Origin: a virus
Strand: one strand, 5' to 3'
Length of the DNA stretch: 28,572 bases
IMG/VR virus record: IMGVR_UViG_3300010354_000450
Span: 1 to 28,572 of that record
The translations under genes and the position numbers were made by a program. Positions 4,332 through 27,333 of the stretch are shown here, in pieces (within the stretch, counting starts at the first letter, position 1; every line of letters begins with the position of its first letter). Under the pieces are notes generated by a model that worked only from the letters and a program-made list of their open reading frames with translations, was not told the DNA's origin and searched no databases.

Positions 4332-4341
4332 TTTATATATC
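4332..4341 (-). promoter_or_regulatory. Putative phage promoter (GATATATA motif)
   Basis: The minus-strand sequence GATATATAAA lies in the divergent gap and faces the 4303 gene, about 30 nt upstream of its start. It is a variant of the AGATATATA(C/G) motif that recurs in other gene-free gaps of this window. Confidence 0.45.
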
Positions 4342-4395: not shown

Positions 4396-4405
4396 AGATA
4401 TATAC
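4396..4405 (+). promoter_or_regulatory. Putative phage promoter (AGATATATAC motif)
   Basis: AGATATATAC is preceded by TTT and lies 21 nt upstream of the FN3 gene start, in the divergent gap opposite the GATATATAAA site. Identical 10-mers occur at 5864 and 27361. Confidence 0.5.
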
Positions 4406-13492: not shown

Positions 13493-13523
13493 GCAATATA
13501 AAACTTTGCTTTTTAATTACAAA
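13493..13523 (-). promoter_or_regulatory. Possible Bacteroidota-type promoter, one mismatch
   Basis: On the minus strand TTTG (13523-13520), 19 nt and TATATTGC (13500-13493) resemble the -33/-7 pair, though the last two bases of the -7 box are off. It could give the membrane protein gene at 13428 extra expression with a leader of about 60 nt. Confidence 0.35.
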
Positions 13524-14242
13524 ATTTCTGTTGAATATAACAGATGCTTATCCCACTCTTCTTTAATTCTACAAGGATAGAGATAATTATGTCCCCACTT
13601 TTTTTCTATGTTGATTGAACTCAATCTTTTTTCGTAGAGTTTTCTTCTGTTTTCAAGACGCTTCAAACCACCTATGTTTTTGTAATGAAGCAATTTAAGA
13701 CTTGGGAATTTATCATATACAATTACACCTGCTGGATAACAGGCATGACATCCATGCTTAAAGCCAATATCATCTATTAATTTAGGATCAAAGATTGGTG
13801 TTTTATCATACCAAGTATCTCTTATTCCTTTTGTAATTTCTTCCCATATATTTGCTTTTGGACTCGGTAGAGTTTCTGAACACATTGAAAACCCTTCCGT
13901 TTGAGGAATACTTATCCCCTTTCTTTTACACGAAAGTAAAAATGTTTCTAAATCTTTGTGATAAACAAATTCGTCTAAATCAAGAACACATACCCAATCA
14001 TAATCTCGAAAATCTTTCCAAGCACTATTCTTTATTTGTAAATATACATCATCTCGTATTTGACCTTCAGTTGCATATACCCTTCTTTCTACCAAGGCAT
14101 GTGCATCACATATTTCAGCAGTTCTATCATCCGATTCATTATCATAGACAATAATCTTTTCGCAAAACTTTTCATAATGATTCAAAAATATTGGTAATAG
14201 TTCTTCTTCGTTCCATGCAATCGTAATGCATACCATTCTCAT
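13517..14242 (-). CDS. Glycosyltransferase, GT2-type (PF13704/GT92-like)
   Basis: This 241-residue protein begins MRMVCITIAWNEEELLPIFLNHYEKF and carries DNESDDRT (NESDD 35-39) and VCVLDLDEFVYH (DLDEF 88-92). The late KLLHYKNIGGLKRLENRR is also typical of the family of short glycosyltransferases acting on surface glycans. It is cytoplasmic, with no membrane segment. Its ATG overlaps the TGA of the preceding gene (ATGA), so it is translationally coupled within a run of glycosyltransferases. The acceptor is unknown. Confidence 0.82.
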   Translation of the reverse strand: MRMVCITIAWNEEELLPIFLNHYEKFCEKIIVYDNESDDRTAEICDAHALVERRVYATEGQIRDDVYLQIKNSAWKDFRDYDWVCVLDLDEFVYHKDLETFLLSCKRKGISIPQTEGFSMCSETLPSPKANIWEEITKGIRDTWYDKTPIFDPKLIDDIGFKHGCHACYPAGVIVYDKFPSLKLLHYKNIGGLKRLENRRKLYEKRLSSINIEKKWGHNYLYPCRIKEEWDKHLLYSTEIL

Positions 14243-14736
14243 AAGTTTTTTCCTGTATGCTTAAATATTGTGTAACGAACATATTCTTTTGCATCTCTTT
14301 CATCTCTTACTAAATTTTCCCAAGTCTCCTTGAAATAAAAGGGAATAGGATAGATTCCTATATTAATCCATAAACCTATACACATATTATCTTCTTCTTC
14401 ATCCTGAACACAATCACCGACAGAATAATCTGCTTCCATTTTAGTTAAAACATCAAAAATTAATTCCATAGAACGAGCAATTTGTTCGAAGTTTGCCTCT
14501 TCTTCATCACCATAAAATTGTATGGTTTTAAGTATTCTATGAGCATAATCATCAGGATTAACACCATCTTCAATTATAGCAAGCTCTGCCGTTTTCAAAT
14601 CTATTTCAAATTCTTCAAGTCCTTCAAGAATAACAACAAGAGTTTTATTTCCATCTTCATCTACACTTTTTTCAAAATGACCTTCACCCCAAATATTCCG
14701 TATGCTTTCAATAATATAATCTGATACATCAATCAT
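14239..14736 (-). CDS. Acidic hypothetical protein inside the glycosyltransferase cluster
   Basis: This 165-residue acidic protein starts MIDVSDYIIESIRNIWGEGHF and contains LVVILEGLEEFEIDLKTAELAII and a Glu/Asp-rich loop (VQDEEEDNMCIG). Start 14736 is preferred over the in-frame ATG at 14748 because GGAG lies 6 nt before it and its ATG overlaps the TGA of the upstream gene. No domain is recognised. The tight coupling on both sides suggests it works with the flanking glycosyltransferases, or with expression of one of them. Confidence 0.7.
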   Translation of the reverse strand: MIDVSDYIIESIRNIWGEGHFEKSVDEDGNKTLVVILEGLEEFEIDLKTAELAIIEDGVNPDDYAHRILKTIQFYGDEEEANFEQIARSMELIFDVLTKMEADYSVGDCVQDEEEDNMCIGLWINIGIYPIPFYFKETWENLVRDERDAKEYVRYTIFKHTGKNL

Positions 14737-15434
14737 TGTAATCTCCATTGTAATGTTTCAAGCACTTGATTTCGATTGGCTACATCATTTGATATATGAT
14801 ATACCCACTCCGTTTGTCTTTGTAAATCTGAAGGATACATATAATTCCAACACTCTTCTGCGTATTCAAAAAAAGGATTATCTAAATTAGGAGAAATACA
14901 TCGAGCAGCATAATTAAATAATGCTTGTTCATAAATCGGATTGAATCTATCGTAATTTAATTCAGGTAAAATTGTTCTAACTATATGACATAATCTACGC
15001 AAAGTTGAGACTTCAGACAAAATAAAACCCGTATTGAAATACACATCAGGTCTATGTATCTCTTGAAGCATCTGTTGTTGCTGATTTATTCTCAATAAAT
15101 TATAGGTATGTTGGTTTAATGTATTTTGATAATTCCCTATCCTTTCATTGCCATTTTTTACAGCTCTTATTTTTTCTGGTATGATTAGAGTAAATGGCGT
15201 TGGTGCATCAGAACGTATAATGCAATCAGCATCAAAAAAAACAACTTGGTCATAACCAGTTGCTATGAAATCTAAATATGCTTTGTTAAAAGTGAAACCA
15301 AAAGCATCACCAAAAAAAAGATCTGAAGAAACAACAAAATCAGCACCCCATCGTGATGCTGCAGATTTCATTGACTCTTCTGAGTTTTCTGTTTGGAAAT
15401 TATTGATGTCTATTGTAATCAAAGCTCTTTTCAT
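14733..15434 (-). CDS. Glycosyltransferase, GT8-like (paralogue A)
   Basis: This 233-residue protein has FNKAYLDFIATGYDQVVFFDADCIIRSD, with the DAD metal-binding motif at about 68-70 followed by DAPTPF. It also has DVYFNTGFILS, IYEQALFNYAARC and a late WVYHISNDV. These are the core features of GT8-type (glycogenin or LPS galactosyltransferase-like) retaining enzymes. It is a paralogue of the next gene upstream (15434-16159): both share FFD-x-D, SDAP/IDAPSPF, YEQALFNY and a His near the end, at nearly equal length. I use ATG 15434 because GGAG precedes it and it overlaps the upstream TAA (TAATG). The acceptor is unknown. Confidence 0.8.
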   Translation of the reverse strand: MKRALITIDINNFQTENSEESMKSAASRWGADFVVSSDLFFGDAFGFTFNKAYLDFIATGYDQVVFFDADCIIRSDAPTPFTLIIPEKIRAVKNGNERIGNYQNTLNQHTYNLLRINQQQQMLQEIHRPDVYFNTGFILSEVSTLRRLCHIVRTILPELNYDRFNPIYEQALFNYAARCISPNLDNPFFEYAEECWNYMYPSDLQRQTEWVYHISNDVANRNQVLETLQWRLQ

Positions 15435-16159
15435 TATACTCTCCAATCATAGTTATGAATTGTATGCTTTGATTTCCAAAAGTTATAGCCAGTGAAATGC
15501 CATACATAATCATTCATTTTAGCAGAATCAATAGGAGGTTCTAAACGATTCCACTTTTCTTCTGTCAGAAACAAGTCATCCTTTCTATATGCCTGAACAA
15601 TATAGTTAAATAATGCTTGTTCATAATGGGCAGACCACGCATATTTCTCTCTACCATCATTAAGAGGTAAAGCACTCGTAATTGCTTTGAAAATAGTTTT
15701 ATGATACTTAGGACTCATTACAAAGAATCCTGAATTAAAGAAATTATTTAAGAATCTTTCTTTGGGAACAGACCAACCAAATTGGTCTTCAAATATATGC
15801 CAATAATGTTCCTGAACATTATTTTTTACGGTTATCCATTGCTCACTATTGTGAGCGTGATTTTCAGGATGAATATCAAGAACGGCAACAAATTTAGTCT
15901 TATCTTGAAAGGTATCAAATGGACTTGGAGCATCAATATGAATAAGCATATCAGAATCAAAAAAGACACATCTATCATAGCCATCTATTTTATCAAAAGA
16001 ACAGACCTTTGCAAATGATGGGTATAACCTTTCATCAAACAATGTTCGTATTTCCAAAAAGTCACATTTCCATCTATCAGCAGCATGACTCAATGATTGA
16101 CGAGCATTATCAGAAAAGTGATTATTGATATTTACTGTCCAAACAAGATTCTTACTCAT
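15434..16159 (-). CDS. Glycosyltransferase, GT8-like (paralogue B)
   Basis: This 241-residue protein has the same layout as its downstream neighbour: AKVCSFDKIDGYDRCVFFDSDMLIHID (DSD at 68-70), DAPSPFDTF, FFNSGFFVMSPKYH, HYEQALFNYIVQ and NDYVWHFTGYNFW. It likely transfers a sugar in the same pathway. The differing metal motif (DSD against DAD) and diverged middle suggest the pair handles different acceptors or successive sugars. Its ATG directly follows the stop of the GT2 gene upstream. No membrane segment is present. Confidence 0.8.
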   Translation of the reverse strand: MSKNLVWTVNINNHFSDNARQSLSHAADRWKCDFLEIRTLFDERLYPSFAKVCSFDKIDGYDRCVFFDSDMLIHIDAPSPFDTFQDKTKFVAVLDIHPENHAHNSEQWITVKNNVQEHYWHIFEDQFGWSVPKERFLNNFFNSGFFVMSPKYHKTIFKAITSALPLNDGREKYAWSAHYEQALFNYIVQAYRKDDLFLTEEKWNRLEPPIDSAKMNDYVWHFTGYNFWKSKHTIHNYDWRV

Positions 16160-16777
16160 TCAAATATGAACTCCAAGAACTTTTTCAACTCGTATATGTC
16201 TAAACTCTTTTGAAAGTGCTTCATAGGTATATCCATCAGAATAAAAACCTTTTTCAGCAACCCAACCTACCTTTTCAATAGCTTCTCTCTTTACAACAAC
16301 TTGCAAAGTATCAATACCACCAACAACTATTGGCCAACCTGAAAGAATTTGTGGCGGCTGTCCAACCCATGCTTGTAGTGGTCCTAAATGAACTATTTGA
16401 CAAACTGCAAATCCAACTTCAGGTCCAGTTCCTTCCAATGCTCCTACCATTTCTTCTAAAAATTCAGGAAACATAATATTATCATCATCCAAGAAAGCAA
16501 AATACTTTCCTTTGAGCCAAGGCATTGCTAATTTTCTTACTGATGCTCCGTAGTCTGCATTGTTTTCTTCCAACTCATAAAAGTGACGCTTGGGTTCTTT
16601 TTTTGAGGTAGTAGAAAAATACTCTCGTAGCACTGGATCAGGTCCATCAGAAACTATGACATGCTCCCAATCTTGAAAAGATTGCCAATTTACACAAGTC
16701 ATACAGCGATTAAGCATCTTTATTCCTCTGTTCCATGTAGGAGTTAAAACGCTGACTGTGGGATTGTTTTTACTCAT
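16160..16777 (-). CDS. Glycosyltransferase, family 2
   Basis: This 205-residue protein has the classic family-2 N-terminus PTVSVLTPTWNRGIKMLNRCM, HVIVSDGPD (43-46), the metal-binding FAFLDDDNIM (DDD at 97-99) and a later GWVAEKGFYSDGY with the acidic acceptor-side region. It is shorter than usual and may be a minimal catalytic domain. It is the promoter-proximal member of the run of four glycosyltransferases, lying 45 nt after the methyltransferase homologue. Confidence 0.85.
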   Translation of the reverse strand: MSKNNPTVSVLTPTWNRGIKMLNRCMTCVNWQSFQDWEHVIVSDGPDPVLREYFSTTSKKEPKRHFYELEENNADYGASVRKLAMPWLKGKYFAFLDDDNIMFPEFLEEMVGALEGTGPEVGFAVCQIVHLGPLQAWVGQPPQILSGWPIVVGGIDTLQVVVKREAIEKVGWVAEKGFYSDGYTYEALSKEFRHIRVEKVLGVHI

Positions 16778-16822: not shown

Positions 16823-18130
16823 TTAGAAGTTTAAGCCCGAATTTATCAAAATTTTTGCTGATTTCTCAATAGTTTTTTCATCAATAGCAGATAATACTGA
16901 ACGAACAACTCTTTGTGCTACATTTACATTCGTTGCCATACCCATAAATTCCCATCGTAAGTTGTATCTATCAGGAATTTGAAACTCTTCAGAAAACCCT
17001 TGCAAACGCAATAATTCTCTTGTAGTAAATCTACGCAATTTCTTCGAATTGACCTCAATTCCATCTTTTAAGATAGATGGATAGTTCTTTTCATCATATA
17101 ATAAATTTCTATCCCAACCTTGACCTCCGAAAGAAATTGATTTTGACTCTCTTTCAGGATCTAATACTATTGAAGAAAACCAATACCCTTTATCTTTATT
17201 TGATTTGTCATTCTGTTCAAGATAAAGTTCATGTTTTCTACTAAAATAATGCTTTGAATCTACTTTGTCTTCTAAAATGTCTTTGAGCTTCCAAGTTCGT
17301 TTTTCAGGTTTTGGCCAATTAAAATTGAGTGCAGAAAGAGGATTTGAAAAAGCTGCAAACCATAATCGCTTTCGCATTTGTGGCACACCATAGTTCAAAG
17401 CATCTAATATAGCAGGATTAGTAGTATAATAACCCGTTGCTTCTTTTAATGTCCTAAAAGCAACAGATGTAGAAGCATCAAATAGTTCATCTCTTTGAGT
17501 TTTATTTGATTCTATTATGATTGCCTTTGGTTGTATTTTATTGACAAACTCAATAAAGGTATACCAATTTGTTTCAATCATACTTTCATATTTAGGTTTC
17601 TTACCCTTATTTAATGGAAGTGATTGTATATCAAGCGAGGTAATAATTACATCTACTTGGGGAAAATTTGTATTTTGTAAAATTTCATTATTGGCATATG
17701 GTATTAAACCAAAATTTGCGGTGTAGGATAGTTTTGTAGTCCTCTTGCTTTCATTATATGAAAAAACACACCTCCCACCCTCTTTCATTAGTCCAAGTGA
17801 TGCTCCACCTACATTACAAAATATATCAGCGAAAGTAAAAGTATAATTCTTTGTTGGAGGAATAGGTATATCATAATCAATAAGACTATTATCTTCAATA
17901 CAACTCAAAAGTAAGTCTTTATCAATTTTCTTACCTTTATAGTTTTTTATCTCATCATATAACCATCTTCCATAAGGAATTTCATCAATAGAAATTATTC
18001 TCGTTAAAAGATGAGAAAGAGTTGATTTATCCTTTGATACATGATAACCTTTAGATCCTAAATGATAAGATTTAATAAATTCAATCTCATTTATTTTAAG
18101 ATCTTTTAGTATGTTCTTATATGAATACAA
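16823..18130 (-). CDS. Cytosine-C5-methyltransferase homologue lacking catalytic Pro-Cys
   Basis: This 435-residue protein has the framework of a DNA cytosine-C5 methyltransferase. Motif I is FADIFCNVGGASLGL (about 99-113) for AdoMet binding. Motif VI is IIIESNK (Glu207), motif VIII is YGVPQMRKRLWF (251-255), and the late target-recognition and C-terminal part is RRFTTRELLRLQGF with FMGMATNVNV. Motif IV should read GGxPCQ, but here reads TSLDIQS (164-170): Pro-Cys is replaced by Asp-Ile. The ENV of motif VI is ESN and the GNAV of motif X is GMATNV. The nucleophilic Cys is thus absent, so ordinary methylation is unlikely. It may be a DNA-binding or decoy protein, a partner, or an altered base-modifying enzyme. 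The start is TTG at 18130, with AAGGTGG 4 nt upstream. No restriction gene is nearby. Confidence 0.82.
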   Translation of the reverse strand: MYSYKNILKDLKINEIEFIKSYHLGSKGYHVSKDKSTLSHLLTRIISIDEIPYGRWLYDEIKNYKGKKIDKDLLLSCIEDNSLIDYDIPIPPTKNYTFTFADIFCNVGGASLGLMKEGGRCVFSYNESKRTTKLSYTANFGLIPYANNEILQNTNFPQVDVIITSLDIQSLPLNKGKKPKYESMIETNWYTFIEFVNKIQPKAIIIESNKTQRDELFDASTSVAFRTLKEATGYYTTNPAILDALNYGVPQMRKRLWFAAFSNPLSALNFNWPKPEKRTWKLKDILEDKVDSKHYFSRKHELYLEQNDKSNKDKGYWFSSIVLDPERESKSISFGGQGWDRNLLYDEKNYPSILKDGIEVNSKKLRRFTTRELLRLQGFSEEFQIPDRYNLRWEFMGMATNVNVAQRVVRSVLSAIDEKTIEKSAKILINSGLNF

Positions 18131-18411: not shown

Positions 18412-19683
18412 TTATAGTAATTGCCAAGCACCTACACCACCATTTGTAGTGTCTGAATAAATTAAACGAGCTGCACCATAAGATGCAACAGTATATGTTC
18501 CCGATCCTGAAGGTAATAAAATGCTATTTGGTCCACTTACAAGACCTGAACCATGAACTATTGTCATCGTTTGGTTTGTTTCATTTGAAATAATAAGTTT
18601 TCTTGTGTCTGTATAGTCTGAATCTATACCAATAAGTTGAAATGTTGAACCAGGTGATCCACCTATTTTTACTAATGTAGTATCATTATTTATCACAAGT
18701 TCCAAATCTGTTGAATTGGATTTTGGAACATTCTGTATCGTATCAGGACAAGGACAACAATCACCTTGTGAACCTTGATTTCCCTGCGAACCATTGTCAC
18801 CTTGATTTCCCTGCGAACCATTGTCACCTTGAAAACCCTGAAAACCTCTTGCTCCATTTGCTCCTTGAGGTCCTACATCACCTTGATTTCCTTGCGGACC
18901 CGATGCACCTTGACCACCACTACCTTGAATGCCTTGTATTCCTTGCGTTCCTTGAACACCTTGAGTCCCCTGTGGTCCTTGACGACCTTGATTACCTTGT
19001 GGTCCGATAATACCTTGAATACCTTGCAAACCTTGTGATCCCTGAACGCCTTGAACACCTTGAACACCTTGCAATCCTTGTGTTCCATCAATACCTTGTG
19101 GTCCAGTTCTTCCTTGATAACCTTGACCACCTAAAATACTTGCAGGAAATCCTATTCCACCTTCATATCTATAAGTTGTCACAGAAGGAGGATTAGCAGA
19201 AGTTACACCTTCAGGTAATCCGTTCAAGAAAGTTAAAACGCCAGAAGCATAATTAAATATCCAATCATTTTGACCTAATGGAATGGGAATCCAAGTTGAT
19301 GAACTTATGTCATATTTCCAAACCTTAGCTTGATAGTCTATACCGAACAATCGTGGAGGAATACAATTTATCAAATCACCCGAACTATCATAAAAAGCAT
19401 TTGCACTACCTTCATCAAAAGTTAAAACTTTCTTATGAAACTTTGTAAATATAAGATCACCTGAATCTTCATAGATTGTTCCATCTCCAAATGTATCTGC
19501 TTTCAAAGGATTTACATTTGGAATTTTATCTGAATCAATCCAAAGTTGATTAGGATTTATAGGAAAGACACTTAAATATGATTCTTCAAAGTTTTCCAAA
19601 TTTACATTTGTTGTGGCTTTGTTAGATTCAAAAGAATTATATGTAAGATGACTTTTTTGGTTTGGCGTTAGTCCTGTGCTCAT
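18412..19683 (-). CDS. Collagen-like tail fibre or decoration protein
   Basis: This 423-residue protein has a globular N-terminal part (1-180) with WIPIPLGQNDWIFNYASG, a collagen-like Gly-x-y region at about 185-308 dominated by GPQG, GVQG and GNQG triplets, a CCPCP break and a beta-rich C-terminal domain (320-423) ending in GVGAWQLL. Collagen triplets form a triple helix, so the protein is likely a trimer, with the N-terminus on the virion and the C-terminal domain exposed. Gln in place of Pro at many y positions is usual for phage collagens. AGGA lies upstream of the ATG. The glycosyltransferase cluster downstream might modify it, but that is an inference. It could also be a head fibre. Confidence 0.85.
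   Translation of the reverse strand: MSTGLTPNQKSHLTYNSFESNKATTNVNLENFEESYLSVFPINPNQLWIDSDKIPNVNPLKADTFGDGTIYEDSGDLIFTKFHKKVLTFDEGSANAFYDSSGDLINCIPPRLFGIDYQAKVWKYDISSSTWIPIPLGQNDWIFNYASGVLTFLNGLPEGVTSANPPSVTTYRYEGGIGFPASILGGQGYQGRTGPQGIDGTQGLQGVQGVQGVQGSQGLQGIQGIIGPQGNQGRQGPQGTQGVQGTQGIQGIQGSGGQGASGPQGNQGDVGPQGANGARGFQGFQGDNGSQGNQGDNGSQGNQGSQGDCCPCPDTIQNVPKSNSTDLELVINNDTTLVKIGGSPGSTFQLIGIDSDYTDTRKLIISNETNQTMTIVHGSGLVSGPNSILLPSGSGTYTVASYGAARLIYSDTTNGGVGAWQLL
18760..19128 (-). repeat. Collagen-like Gly-x-y repeat tract
   Basis: About 41 consecutive Gly-x-y triplets (residues 186-308) are encoded by 9-bp and 18-bp sub-repeats of the form (+ strand) CCTTGaayaCC. Such DNA is prone to length change by slippage. 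Confidence 0.9.
18774..18827 (-). repeat. Perfect 27-bp tandem duplication in the collagen tract
   Basis: Two identical 27-bp copies (18774-18800 and 18801-18827) encode GDNGSQGNQ twice. With no base difference between them, the duplication must be recent, evidence for current expansion of the fibre. Confidence 0.92.
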
Positions 19684-21589: not shown

Positions 21590-21598
21590 GTATATATC
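21590..21598 (-). promoter_or_regulatory. Putative phage promoter (GATATATAC motif)
   Basis: TTGATATATACTT on the minus strand overlaps the stop codon of the preceding gene and lies 45 nt upstream of ATG 21545. Confidence 0.5.
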
Positions 21599-22166
21599 AA
21601 TTCTGTTCTGATTCTTCTGTGTCATTTGGATTTAGATTATTTTCCAAAGCACCCAATTTGAGTTTCAAATTTTGAAGTGTCTGTGAATCCTTTCTAAACA
21701 AATTAACTGTTTCTGAAATAGGAACGAGCAATTTTTCATAGAAAGTCTTTGCTGATTGAAGTCCCACACCTTCTGCCGATTGAAGCATTTGCAAAATAGG
21801 TTCAATAAAGATACCTGTAATTTCAAATACTTGTGTTTTTCTACACTCTTTGACTGCTTGTTCAATCTCTGCGTGAGCATTTACAACCAAAAAAGCATCG
21901 GTAAAACGCCATTTTACACGATCATGAATGAATTTTTTCAATTCATCGGCAGTATTCAAACCACCTTCAACCACATAGCGTTTTGTTATGGATTCATTCT
22001 CCAAACGCTTGATTTCATGACTAATCAACTCAATTCTCTCTTCAAGAGAGAGAGCTTCATCATCCCAGCTTCCGTTAATGGAAGGTTCATGAGACTCTGA
22101 TGTTGGTATTTGCACCACATCTTCAATGATTGTGGCATCTGTTTCTGGACTGACGACTTTCGGCAT
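21597..22166 (-). CDS. Hypothetical coiled-coil protein
   Basis: This 189-residue protein starts MPKVVSPETDATIIEDVVQI. It contains a coiled coil (SLEERIELISHEIKRLENES), a central compact part (ELKKFIHDRVKWRFTDAFLVVNAHAEIEQAVKECRKTQVFEI) and a C-terminal helix (DSQTLQNLKLKLGALENNL). ATG 22166 is favoured over 22169 and the in-frame TTG at 22178 because GGAG lies 6 nt before it. It is the first minus-strand gene beside the large non-coding region. No family is recognised; phage scaffold-like or chaperone-like helical proteins would look similar. Confidence 0.65.
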   Translation of the reverse strand: MPKVVSPETDATIIEDVVQIPTSESHEPSINGSWDDEALSLEERIELISHEIKRLENESITKRYVVEGGLNTADELKKFIHDRVKWRFTDAFLVVNAHAEIEQAVKECRKTQVFEITGIFIEPILQMLQSAEGVGLQSAKTFYEKLLVPISETVNLFRKDSQTLQNLKLKLGALENNLNPNDTEESEQN

Positions 22167-22310
22167 CATATTCTCCAATTAAATGTAACAAATTATCGAT
22201 AATCGCACACTTTTTCGTGTTGCATACAATTTATACAATTTCTATGACTTTTTGTTCAAATGTTCAAATTTTTCAATTTTTCGGTCAATTTTGTGCTTTT
22301 TTTCAAAAAG

Positions 22311-22319
22311 TTATCCACA
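22311..22319 (+). promoter_or_regulatory. Perfect DnaA box TTATCCACA
   Basis: TTATCCACA matches the strongest bacterial DnaA-box consensus exactly. Only one perfect copy was noticed in this gap, in a strongly AT-rich surrounding. A host-DnaA-assisted origin is possible, but a single box is weak evidence. Confidence 0.45.
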
Positions 22320-22353
22320 CAATGTAACCTTTTGGCGTTTCGTGGATTATATA

Positions 22354-22478
22354 GTTATGGGGGTAACGCAGTTAAGCCTAGCATCTTAACGCTCAACCTC
22401 TTAACTTTGAGAGTAAATTGAGAGTAAACTCTCACTTGGCTACGAGCCAATTTACATCCTTTTTTTTTATTTTTTTAT
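22354..22478 (+). ncRNA. Hairpin array ending in a T-run, candidate small RNA
   Basis: Consecutive hairpins are GTTA/TAAC (22354-22367), GTTAAG/CTTAAC (22371-22390), CTCAA/TTGAG (22392-22411), TGAGAG/CTCTCA with a TAAA loop (22419-22434) and TTGGCT/AGCCAA with an ACG loop (22436-22450). TTTACATCC and a T8-A-T7 run follow. The last hairpin plus T-run could terminate a plus-strand RNA. The inverted repeats could equally be protein-binding sites of an origin. Confidence 0.45.
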
Positions 22479-22501
22479 AGTAATTTATTGGTTGGCTAGG
22501 T

Positions 22502-22667
22502 AAACCTTAAAAGAAATAAAAAAATAGAAGCTAATCTGCAATGTGCTACTCAACAACTAGGCAGAGCAAGGTTCAGCATTTTCAATGCTTACACTTGTTT
22601 AGCAAATTGGGTTGTAAAGCCCGAAAGTGTGCCTACTCTGAAAGAGTATGCTAAATAAAGGTTTTTT
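22502..22667 (+). ncRNA. Candidate structured RNA with pseudoknot
   Basis: Folding by eye gives a closing helix AAACCTT (22502-22508) with AAGGTTT (22658-22664). Inside are TCTGC/GCAGA (22535-22539, 22561-22565), AGCATT/AATGCT (22575-22580, 22584-22589), ACACTT/AAGTGT (22591-22596, 22625-22630), GGGTT/AGCCC closing a GTAA (GNRA) tetraloop (22609-22622) and TACTC/GAGTA (22634-22638, 22644-22648). TTTAGCA (22598-22604), in the internal loop, can pair with TGCTAAA (22649-22655) as a pseudoknot. A T-run ends it (22662-22667). The U-G wobble in GGGTT/AGCCC and the GNRA loop both favour the plus strand. No known RNA class is recognised. Base-pairing was judged by eye only. Confidence 0.6.
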
Positions 22668-22774
22668 CAACAAATCTTGTCCTTTGTAATATAGCCATAC
22701 TCAAAGACTTACCCTTTTATTGTAATTTTTTTTTCAAAAAATTCTTTTTTCTTTTGTTTCTTGCCATAAGTATA

Positions 22775-22784
22775 AGATATATAG
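22775..22784 (+). promoter_or_regulatory. Putative phage promoter (AGATATATAG motif)
   Basis: AGATATATAG faces the plus-strand block starting at 22830, 46 nt downstream, and lies upstream of a second, host-type promoter for the same gene. Confidence 0.5.
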
Positions 22785-22791
22785 AATGAGT

Positions 22792-22825
22792 GTTTATTCT
22801 GAATAAACCATAATATTTATCTTTG
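22792..22825 (+). promoter_or_regulatory. Host-type promoter overlapped by a palindromic operator-like site
   Basis: TATCTTTG (22818-22825) is a -7 box 5 nt before ATG 22830, so the mRNA may be leaderless. The -33 position has TTTA (22793-22796) instead of TTTG. GTTTATTCTGAATAAAC (22792-22808) is a 17-bp palindrome symmetric except at its centre, and covers the -33 region, where a bound repressor would block polymerase. Confidence 0.45.
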
Positions 22826-22829
22826 CTCT

Positions 22830-23249
22830 ATGAGCTATAACTTATTTTTAGATGACAAACGAAATCCTAATGATATATGGAATCATCTCAAAAGCCCTGA
22901 ATATGCTGTCTATAATTGGATTATAGTTAAAGACTATAATTCATTTATTGATACTATTCAAGATAATGGGACACCACTTCGTATTTCTTTTGATCATAAT
23001 TTAAGTGACGAACACCTTTTGGAAACAAATACAAAGAAAATACCTTATGATTCGTACAAGGTTAAAACGGGTTTTCATTGTGCTTTATGGCTAATTGAGT
23101 ATTGTTTGGATTTTGAAATACCTCTACCAAAATATAAGGTTCATGCAGAAAAGGGTATCGGCAAGAAAAATATTGAAAATCTACTCGATAATTTTGATAA
23201 ATACCAAAAGTCCCTACAATCAACAAAACCAACAAATAAAAAAAATTGA
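22830..23249 (+). CDS. cREC-like receiver-fold protein (cyclic-phosphate processing type)
   Basis: This 139-residue protein has the motif order of the cREC receiver-like family (cyclic-phosphate processing Receiver domain): NLFLDDKRNP at 4-13 (Asp pair), ISFDHNLSDE at about 52-61, TGFHCALWLIEYC, then PLPKYKVHAEKGIGKKNIENLL. The usual DHDL is DHNL here and the usual HS is HA. The family has been proposed, from gene-neighbourhood analysis, to process cyclic phosphate ends of RNA, and it appears in phages. This fits an anti-host or RNA-repair role but has not been shown here. The ATG lies 5 nt after a -7 box. It is the first gene of the plus-strand run up to 25555. Confidence 0.7.
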   Translation: MSYNLFLDDKRNPNDIWNHLKSPEYAVYNWIIVKDYNSFIDTIQDNGTPLRISFDHNLSDEHLLETNTKKIPYDSYKVKTGFHCALWLIEYCLDFEIPLPKYKVHAEKGIGKKNIENLLDNFDKYQKSLQSTKPTNKKN

Positions 23250-25142: not shown

Positions 25143-25555
25143 ATAAATACATCAAACTCTATGAAGAATATGTAGAAAATGTTGAAATTTCTTTACAAAG
25201 GGAAATTGATGTAACTATTCGATTTCTTGTAAGAGAAAATGTAAAGACAGAAACTTTGCAAAGAAAGATAGAACAGAGATTTATTGAGAGTATTAAACCC
25301 CCTTTCACCTATTCAGATATAACTTTTTATTCTTTTGACATCGATCATATATCAGATATACCTCTTGGTCAAAATAGATTTGCGTCTGAATATGGAATAA
25401 AAGCTAAATTAGTATTTAATGATGTTGAACTTGATGACTTAACCATAGATAAAATGATCAAAAGAGGAATTACTAGCTTTCTGAAATTAGAGGAAGACTC
25501 ATATTTTCTTGATGATATTGAAAGTTCTACAATCGTTAGTTTGGATTATATTTAA
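25139..25555 (+). CDS. Hypothetical protein with IKLYEEY N-terminal tag
   Basis: This 138-residue protein starts MNKYIKLYEEYVENVE, the third protein in the window with this kind of tag beside those at 3353 and 28150. The rest is alpha/beta: EIDVTIRFLVRENVKTE, FTYSDITFYSFDIDHI and KAKLVFNDVELDDLTIDKM. It is the last gene of its operon. Its TAA overlaps the TAA of the convergent terminase gene within a shared TTAA, so no terminator separates them. A virion-packaged protein is inferred only from the tag. Confidence 0.65.
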   Translation: MNKYIKLYEEYVENVEISLQREIDVTIRFLVRENVKTETLQRKIEQRFIESIKPPFTYSDITFYSFDIDHISDIPLGQNRFASEYGIKAKLVFNDVELDDLTIDKMIKRGITSFLKLEEDSYFLDDIESSTIVSLDYI

Positions 25556-27333
25556 GAACGCATCATTTTGTAAATATCACCCATATTCTTCATACTCATA
25601 GGATTATCGCTCATCATATTTTCAAGTTTATTGTTAATCTCTTTTTTGTATCGTTCTTGAACACCATCATCCCATATATCACTTACACAATCAGGAAAAA
25701 CAGCAGACTTAAAAAACGCCATCAGATTTACACAACTCATAGCACAATCATCATGACCTCTTTCATTTGAGTATGTCCCAGCTTCATTGACACCGAAAGT
25801 TGTAAATTCAGCAATGGTTGTATCATGAGTTAAAATAATTCTTCTAGCTCTGAAAAAAGGTCTGAAATCTTCACAATATATTCGTTTAAGTTGATTGTTG
25901 AGTTTTATTCCAGGTTTGAAAATTTTATCTTCGGATTTATGTTTTGTTGTAACAAATAGTTCAGAGAAAAACTCTTCATGTTGAGCCATTAACTCCAAGA
26001 AGTAATTTCCATTGTAGTTCATTTCAAGAACTATCTTAACTCTTTCTTCCCCTAAAATGTCATAGATAACTGCGTTAGTGATTTTTACAAAGTCTGAAAT
26101 AGAAACTGTATTGGATCTGAATATTCCAACTTGCTTTAATCCAAAGAAATCTATCTCACCTTGATACATTTTATGTCTTCTCATAGCACCCATACTCATA
26201 GGAACTAATTGAAATATATTTAGAATGGTGTAATCTCTGTTAGCTCCTTCAGCCAAATCGATTGAAACCACAAAAAAGCGTTTTCCTTGTCGAAATCTTC
26301 CATTGTTATCTTTGTAATCAAATTGAAATGTAGTGTCCCAAGTCAAGTCTTTGTAATTTAAGTCCTGATCATGTAGTGTTTCAATTTCTCTAAATTCATA
26401 TTTATGTTCACATCTCTTTGCAAATTGAATAGATTGTCCATCTAAAAGGAATGAAGAACTTGCAACGAACTGATTACCGAACTCTTGATTAAATGCCTCT
26501 TCACTACCTAAATCTTCAATCCATTTTTGTTTCCACGCTTCATCTCTACCTGGAACTTGCCACCAATCAACTCGTAAAGGAGTAAACCCACTTTTCTTCT
26601 TTATAGCGTTATCATAAATCTCGTAGAAAAGATTTAGTCCATTTGCAGTTGATGTAATTAACATCTTTGAGTCTTTGATAGAAGAAAGTGTAGGTAGAAT
26701 AGATTTATAGAATGACCTTGCTATTTTTTCAGGAATATGAGCAAACTCATCAGCAAAGATAACATCAAAGGTAAAACCGATAGCAGGGGTTTCCGTGCAC
26801 GCCTCAGCAAATATTCGGCAACCGTTGTCAAAAGCCATTCGACCTATATTATTGACTTTAACACCTGGTTTCATATAAAAGGGTAAATGACGCAGAATTG
26901 TCTTTGTTTTATCTAATATCTCTTCAGATGTTGCTCGTTTATTTGCAATTACAAGAACATTCTTATCCAAATGAAAACAGATATACCAAGCAAGAAATAT
27001 ACATGTCGTTATAGTTTTTCCGATTTGTCTTGAAGCCAAGAACACGACACGATCATTTTCAGCATATGCTTTGATAACTTGTTCTTGATAGTCACGAAGT
27101 CGTATTTTCTCAACACCATTATCAGTCTTCGAAAAGCAGTAATTGTTGGCAAAATAGAGAATGTCTTTTTGACATCTGACTATTTCTTCAAGTTCAGATT
27201 GGTCATATTCAAATGCTATATTAGCACCTCTCCAATCGGTGTCTCCTTCTGCAAATGGATTTTGTCTTGGCATACTATCACCATTGGTGATACTTTCCAT
27301 TAAATCTATTACTGCTTTTGTGCTCCAAGCCAT
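25552..27333 (-). CDS. Terminase large subunit, T4 gp17-like
   Basis: This 593-residue protein is the ATP-driven DNA-packaging motor and headful nuclease. The N-terminal ATPase has Walker A SRQIGKT (101-107), Walker B VIFADE (191-196) and the coupling motif TSTANG (about 228-232). A preceding RDYQEQVI (80-87) fits the adenine-binding Q motif. The C-terminal RNase H-like nuclease has SIDLAEG (Asp359), VLEMNYNG (Glu437) and GHDDCAMS (Asp528/529), the expected metal ligands. Length agrees with T4 gp17 (610 residues). It is alone on the minus strand between two plus-strand blocks. No small terminase subunit or portal is visible here. It would dock on the portal of the prohead built from the capsid genes at 8-12 kb. 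Confidence 0.95.
   Translation of the reverse strand: MAWSTKAVIDLMESITNGDSMPRQNPFAEGDTDWRGANIAFEYDQSELEEIVRCQKDILYFANNYCFSKTDNGVEKIRLRDYQEQVIKAYAENDRVVFLASRQIGKTITTCIFLAWYICFHLDKNVLVIANKRATSEEILDKTKTILRHLPFYMKPGVKVNNIGRMAFDNGCRIFAEACTETPAIGFTFDVIFADEFAHIPEKIARSFYKSILPTLSSIKDSKMLITSTANGLNLFYEIYDNAIKKKSGFTPLRVDWWQVPGRDEAWKQKWIEDLGSEEAFNQEFGNQFVASSSFLLDGQSIQFAKRCEHKYEFREIETLHDQDLNYKDLTWDTTFQFDYKDNNGRFRQGKRFFVVSIDLAEGANRDYTILNIFQLVPMSMGAMRRHKMYQGEIDFFGLKQVGIFRSNTVSISDFVKITNAVIYDILGEERVKIVLEMNYNGNYFLELMAQHEEFFSELFVTTKHKSEDKIFKPGIKLNNQLKRIYCEDFRPFFRARRIILTHDTTIAEFTTFGVNEAGTYSNERGHDDCAMSCVNLMAFFKSAVFPDCVSDIWDDGVQERYKKEINNKLENMMSDNPMSMKNMGDIYKMMRS

Follow-up and report, generated by a model that had tools for sequence, protein, structure and literature searches.

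A conserved hairpin element downstream of an ECF-type promoter at a possible replication origin in a clade of T4-like phages

The DNA analyzed here (the window) comprises the 28,572 bases of an IMG/VR record and belongs to a T4-like phage, as indicated by its gp23-like capsid protein, prohead protease, large terminase, and PhoH; the phage is a giant one, and its host is probably a member of Bacteroidota. A minus-strand gene at 21597–22178 and a divergent plus-strand gene with a cREC domain (22830–23249) flank a long intergenic region, and a homologous gap occurs in six related contigs. The relevant features are as follows.

22179–22829, no strand assigned: intergenic region of 651 bp between the divergent genes
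22311–22319, plus strand: perfect DnaA-box match TTATCCACA, 3 bp upstream of the promoter −35
22323–22354, plus strand: ECF-sigma-type promoter TGTAACC-N15-GATT-ATATAG, unique in the genome
22358–22667, plus strand: predicted transcript of about 305 nt, from near the GGGGG after ATATAG to the T-run
22460–22480, plus strand: T-rich tract, present in all copies
22507–22526, plus strand: A-rich tract, conserved in all copies
22598–22604, plus strand: 5′ arm of the outer helix
22623–22631, plus strand: lead-in GAAAGTGTG, with GTGTG invariant in 7/7 copies
22631–22651, plus strand: core hairpin of eight pairs with the pentaloop U[G/A]AA[A/C]
22649–22655, plus strand: 3′ arm of the outer helix, whose first 3 nt compete with the last core-hairpin pairs
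22662–22667, plus strand: T-run, the likely 3′ end
22776–22784, plus strand: GATATATAG, a common phage promoter serving the next gene, separate from the RNA
25552–27333: large terminase subunit, about 3 kb from the element and syntenic

Relatives were gathered by a terminase search, which yielded six contigs with shared gene order and the shared gap; because the L009 and L005 sequences are identical, five of these relatives are independent. The comparison set consisted of seven copies of the element, all from one clade and including the window, with L003 contributing two: at 14428–15170 (minus strand) of that contig, the unit is doubled in tandem with a spacing of about 410 bp, and the copies have slightly diverged. 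Terminase identity to the window was 81–92% inside the clade and at most 48% for the next relatives; the element was absent from those of the latter that were examined, and the distant relatives had no comparable gap upstream of the cREC gene. A DNA similarity search against 50,697 phage records gave no match, an exact 21-mer of the 3′ domain had zero matches in viral contigs, and a covariance model (R1) run on 81 loci and then on 20 whole records (including PAU, PTm1, MaF61, and pT24) found nothing convincing outside the clade. One extra contig retrieved with a relaxed hairpin pattern (L021) was a chance match inside an apparent coding region.

The original prediction placed at 22502–22667 an undescribed structured RNA with six helices and a pseudoknot. 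All seven of its complementary segment pairs are present in the window sequence, as follows.

22502–22508/22658–22664: closing helix
22535–22539/22561–22565: helix
22575–22580/22584–22589: helix
22591–22596/22625–22630: crossing helix ACACTT/AAGTGT, not conserved
22598–22604/22649–22655: helix TTTAGCA/TGCTAAA, formerly read as the pseudoknot
22609–22613/22618–22622: helix of the GGGTT/AGCCC hairpin
22634–22638/22644–22648: helix, conserved

The plus strand folded with an energy of −41.1 kcal/mol (z = −2.43; 4 of 200 shuffles equally good), and the minus-strand fold was no better than those of shuffles (z = −0.97). When the window was aligned with the six homologous copies, the helix at 22634–22648 held, with 91% of cells paired and compensatory changes; the remaining helices were paired in 40–71% of cells in the same alignment, the outer parts of which align poorly. 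The closing helix, which had been proposed as a 7-bp long-range feature, the GGGTT/AGCCC hairpin, and the others in this range are therefore either specific to the window or too diverged for alignment. Because the crossing ACACTT/AAGTGT helix is not conserved, TTTAGCA/TGCTAAA is best read not as a pseudoknot but as an outer helix nested around the core hairpin. The loop of this hairpin, which had been described as a GNRA cap, is a pentaloop and not a GNRA tetraloop. The proposed fold of six helices and a pseudoknot is mostly not conserved, whereas the T-run is indeed present after the structure; the comparison of homologs, which had been proposed as a check, showed compensatory changes in the core hairpin.

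Conservation in this part of the gap centers on 22623–22651, where a lead-in resembling GAAGTGTG precedes a hairpin of 8 bp and a 5-nt loop. Across the seven copies, four of the eight pairs were unvarying and four had changed on both sides, and the covariation score was reached by none of 500 shuffles, in a set of only seven sequences. The strand of the core hairpin is ambiguous, as the A-C mismatches on the plus strand correspond to G-U pairs on the minus strand: 89% of cells were paired on the plus strand, and 93% when read on the minus strand. The mean folding z of the 3′ domain was −2.67 on the plus strand versus −2.07 on the minus strand. The outer helix has been rebuilt with different letters among the relatives, from TTTAGCA/TGCTAAA in the window to CATAAATG/CATTTATG in L006, GTGTTTATTGAC/GTCAATAAGCAC in L009, and GAGTTAAAT/ATTTAACTC in L004. 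Shuffle tests based on the longest helix gave a combined p of 7e−4 for all copies and 5e−4 without L003, and tests of duplex energy gave combined p values of 0.001 and 0.0017; taken individually, L002 and L003 give the outer helix no support. One reading frame encodes [K/R]C[V/A]xS[E/K]R[L/V] in all copies, yet a coding reading was rejected because the start, the upstream frame, and the end are unshared and several of the paired changes are non-synonymous. No covariance model in Rfam matched at the gathering score, in agreement with the original prediction, which had named no matching RNA class, and only chance matches appeared at E values up to 10; a search for tRNA and tmRNA found none. Judged by sequence comparison, a conserved structured element without a known family is present at this locus. 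Nothing in the analysis supports the suggestion that it is a host-RNA decoy or an anti-defense RNA.

The promoter, the DnaA-box match, and the replication-origin signature described below were all absent from the original prediction. Upstream of the hairpin, the longest conserved block in the gap is TGTAACCTTTTGSC..TTTCG....ATATAG (22323–22354), for which the clade consensus is TGTAACC-N15-NNNN-ATATAG. It is single-copy in every relative with the element, including one of 200 kb, in which the remaining TGTAACC sites lack the rest of the block. When the pattern was searched against 84,980 bacterial and archaeal genomes, there were two matches (L125 and L126), both in Bacteroidales assemblies and each directly before an ECF sigma gene, with a spacer and −10 (TTTTGGCATTTCGGGTATCATATAG) nearly equal to those of the phage. 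TGTAACC also occurs ahead of further ECF sigma genes in this phylum, in most cases followed by CGTC at a distance of about 16 nt. Since promoters of this type precede host ECF sigma genes, and since the phage −35 lies at ECF spacing from its −10, as in Bacteroidota ECF sigma promoters, the RNA is apparently expressed from a promoter of the ECF type. The −35 heptamer is thus common to phage and host and the −10 form is shared with L125 and L126, whereas most other host ECF promoters have CGTC at −10, unlike the phage. Furthermore, the host promoters drive the sigma operon, whereas the phage copy precedes a putative noncoding transcript.

The 199,927-bp relative (G005) encodes a 158-aa ECF-like sigma factor (31398–31856, minus strand; PF07638 above the cut-off), so the acting sigma factor may be that of the host or of the phage. 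It also has a gp55-like late sigma gene (PHROG 234; about 113602–113739, minus strand), which presumably serves the common phage promoter. The latter differs from the promoter of the RNA: it is GATATATA, 14-fold enriched upstream of genes. In the window, GATATATA(G/C) occurs at 4397, 5865, 22776, and 27362 on the plus strand and at 4341, 13044, 21205, and 21598 on the minus strand, and it looks like the common promoter motif of the clade, replacing TATAAATA of T4. A transcript from the ECF-type promoter would end at the T-run, although the T-rich tract at 22460–22480 may end it early, before the hairpin; a terminator scan of the gap found none on the plus strand.

In G005, the homologous gap (178218–178817) is the longest in the genome (599 bp; the next is 292 bp). 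Cumulative GC skew reaches its global minimum there, where a long minus block meets a plus block. As skew depends on the direction of the genes, it was also tested separately for each gene strand; this was done for G005 and the window, as the other contigs have too few genes in the lagging direction. Among plus-strand genes of G005, the skew at codon position 3 was 0.04 to the left of the gap and 0.21 to the right (permutation p = 5e−5), and the minus-strand genes to the left had a third-position skew of 0.21. For a single change point, the optimum along the entire contig was 178–179 kb, which coincides with the gap and exceeds the worst points by 30 log-likelihood units. The window behaved alike, with third-position skews of 0.191 (left, minus strand), 0.048 (left, plus strand), 0.200 (right, plus strand), and −0.02 (right, minus strand). 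This pattern is as expected of a replication origin, although transcription class, and not replication, could account for part of it.

In T4, oriE, oriF, and oriG are located at points of diverging transcription and shifting compositional bias, and the minimal oriF/oriG comprise a promoter plus an A+T-rich unwinding element at which the transcript forms an R-loop (PMC3016281). The gap, also in a T4-like phage, has the same kind of location, at a switch of transcription direction and of skew. Its promoter is conserved and is followed by A/T-rich tracts, through which a transcript is predicted to run and which are candidates for such an unwinding element; compared with the rest of the genome, however, these tracts showed no exceptional ease of melting. 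T4 oriF/oriG have MotA middle promoters, whereas the element here has a single-copy ECF-type TGTAACC...ATATAG in place of a MotA promoter. Neither a conserved RNA hairpin nor a DnaA box, both of which are seen here, is mentioned in the passages of PMC3016281 consulted. A box of the form TTWTCCACA closely precedes the promoter in four of six sequences (the window, L006, L009, and, in reverse orientation, L004), whereas L002 (one mismatch) and L003 have a degenerate box or none; the entire G005 contains five. A DnaA-box cluster was sought at the gap and just this one box was found, in the four sequences, which is not the pattern of a DnaA-dependent origin. A search for direct-repeat iterons gave no convincing array, just two adjacent 11-mers. 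In another phage, ICP1, bidirectional replication from a single origin has been mapped early in infection (PMC7145576).

Several explanations of the conserved hairpin were weighed. It may belong to a free-standing regulatory RNA whose ECF promoter is active early or under envelope stress during infection and whose GTGTG hairpin binds a protein or an RNA of either the phage or the host; its proximity to the skew switch would then be a coincidence. The promoter-like block of its own, the T-run, and the covarying hairpin with its invariant lead-in fit this well, as do the separate promoter of the next gene at 22776 and the tandem second copy in L003. However, it does not account for the coincidence with the change point of strand-corrected skew, with the DnaA-box match, or with the longest gap in the genome, and no target or partner was found; we consider it possible, though less probable than an origin. 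The origin position would also suit an element acting as DNA, in which a single-stranded hairpin on the displaced or lagging strand is recognized by an initiator, a helicase loader, or a primase in the manner of single-strand initiation hairpins, and transcription merely opens the duplex. The stem pairs on either strand and the folding energies are similar on both, but the T-run after the structure and the upstream promoter suggest a transcript and the 3′ domain folds slightly better on the plus strand (−2.67 versus −2.07), making this unlikely.

Chance pairing arises in AT-rich DNA and the outer parts of the structure vary in sequence, as would be expected of ordinary transcription-end or leader hairpins without a dedicated function. 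Such hairpins would not account for the conserved GTGTG lead-in and loop or for the compensatory changes; moreover, the element is single-copy per genome, except for the tandem pair in L003, and the scan of the gap showed no plus-strand terminator, so we consider this explanation very unlikely. With the large terminase gene 3 kb away in synteny, a packaging RNA or packaging site was also considered; T4-like terminases are not known to require RNA, no Rfam family matched, and the skew favors an origin, which leaves packaging an extremely improbable role.

We give about even chances to the remaining explanation, drawn from the sequence features, that a T4-like replication origin lies here and gives rise to a structured transcript of about 300 nt. 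Transcription would start at the TGTAACC promoter beside the DnaA-box match, by RNA polymerase carrying either a host ECF sigma factor or the ECF-like sigma of the phage, and DnaA would perhaps tune this promoter. The transcript would cross the T-rich and A-rich tracts, carry the conserved GTGTG hairpin and outer helix at its 3′ end, and open the DNA as an R-loop, as in T4 oriF/oriG. It could then prime replication or provide a landing place for the replisome, and the hairpin could define the 3′ end or act as a binding site for a replication protein. The RNA may thus help to start phage DNA replication. A ColE1-type primer transcript is a functional analogy only (an origin transcript priming replication, as ColE1 is described in PMC3016281), and that replicon is of a different type. 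What governs the formation of R-loops at the T4 origins is named among the unanswered questions in PMC3016281.

If the origin explanation is true, an origin-linked conserved RNA with a host ECF-sigma promoter would provide a testable link between host stress signaling and phage replication and would represent a novel family of RNAs among Bacteroidota phages. To our knowledge, the origins of large phages other than T4 are mostly unmapped. A bolder proposal, which we consider rather doubtful, is that the element represents a previously unrecognized class of phage origin RNA. This would be a dedicated, structured transcript made from a stress-sigma promoter that was copied from the host and lies next to a DnaA box, so that the envelope-stress response triggered by infection would start replication. 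GOLLD and ROOL are large, ornate structured noncoding RNAs, some of them phage-borne, with unclear functions; they are much larger than the putative RNA here, which matched no Rfam family.

Other features of the window and its relatives were also observed. A second small hairpin lies at 22783–22811, just after the GATATATAG promoter of the cREC gene; it weakly resembles the core hairpin (E = 0.02), and the relatives seem to have one there too. One relative has a further 841-bp stretch without listed ORFs (L113, 15214–16055). A gene run resembling glycosyltransferases (13517–16777) is followed in the window by a C-5 cytosine DNA methylase (16823–18130), and a collagen-like protein with GPQG/GIQG repeats (18412–19683) adjoins structural genes.
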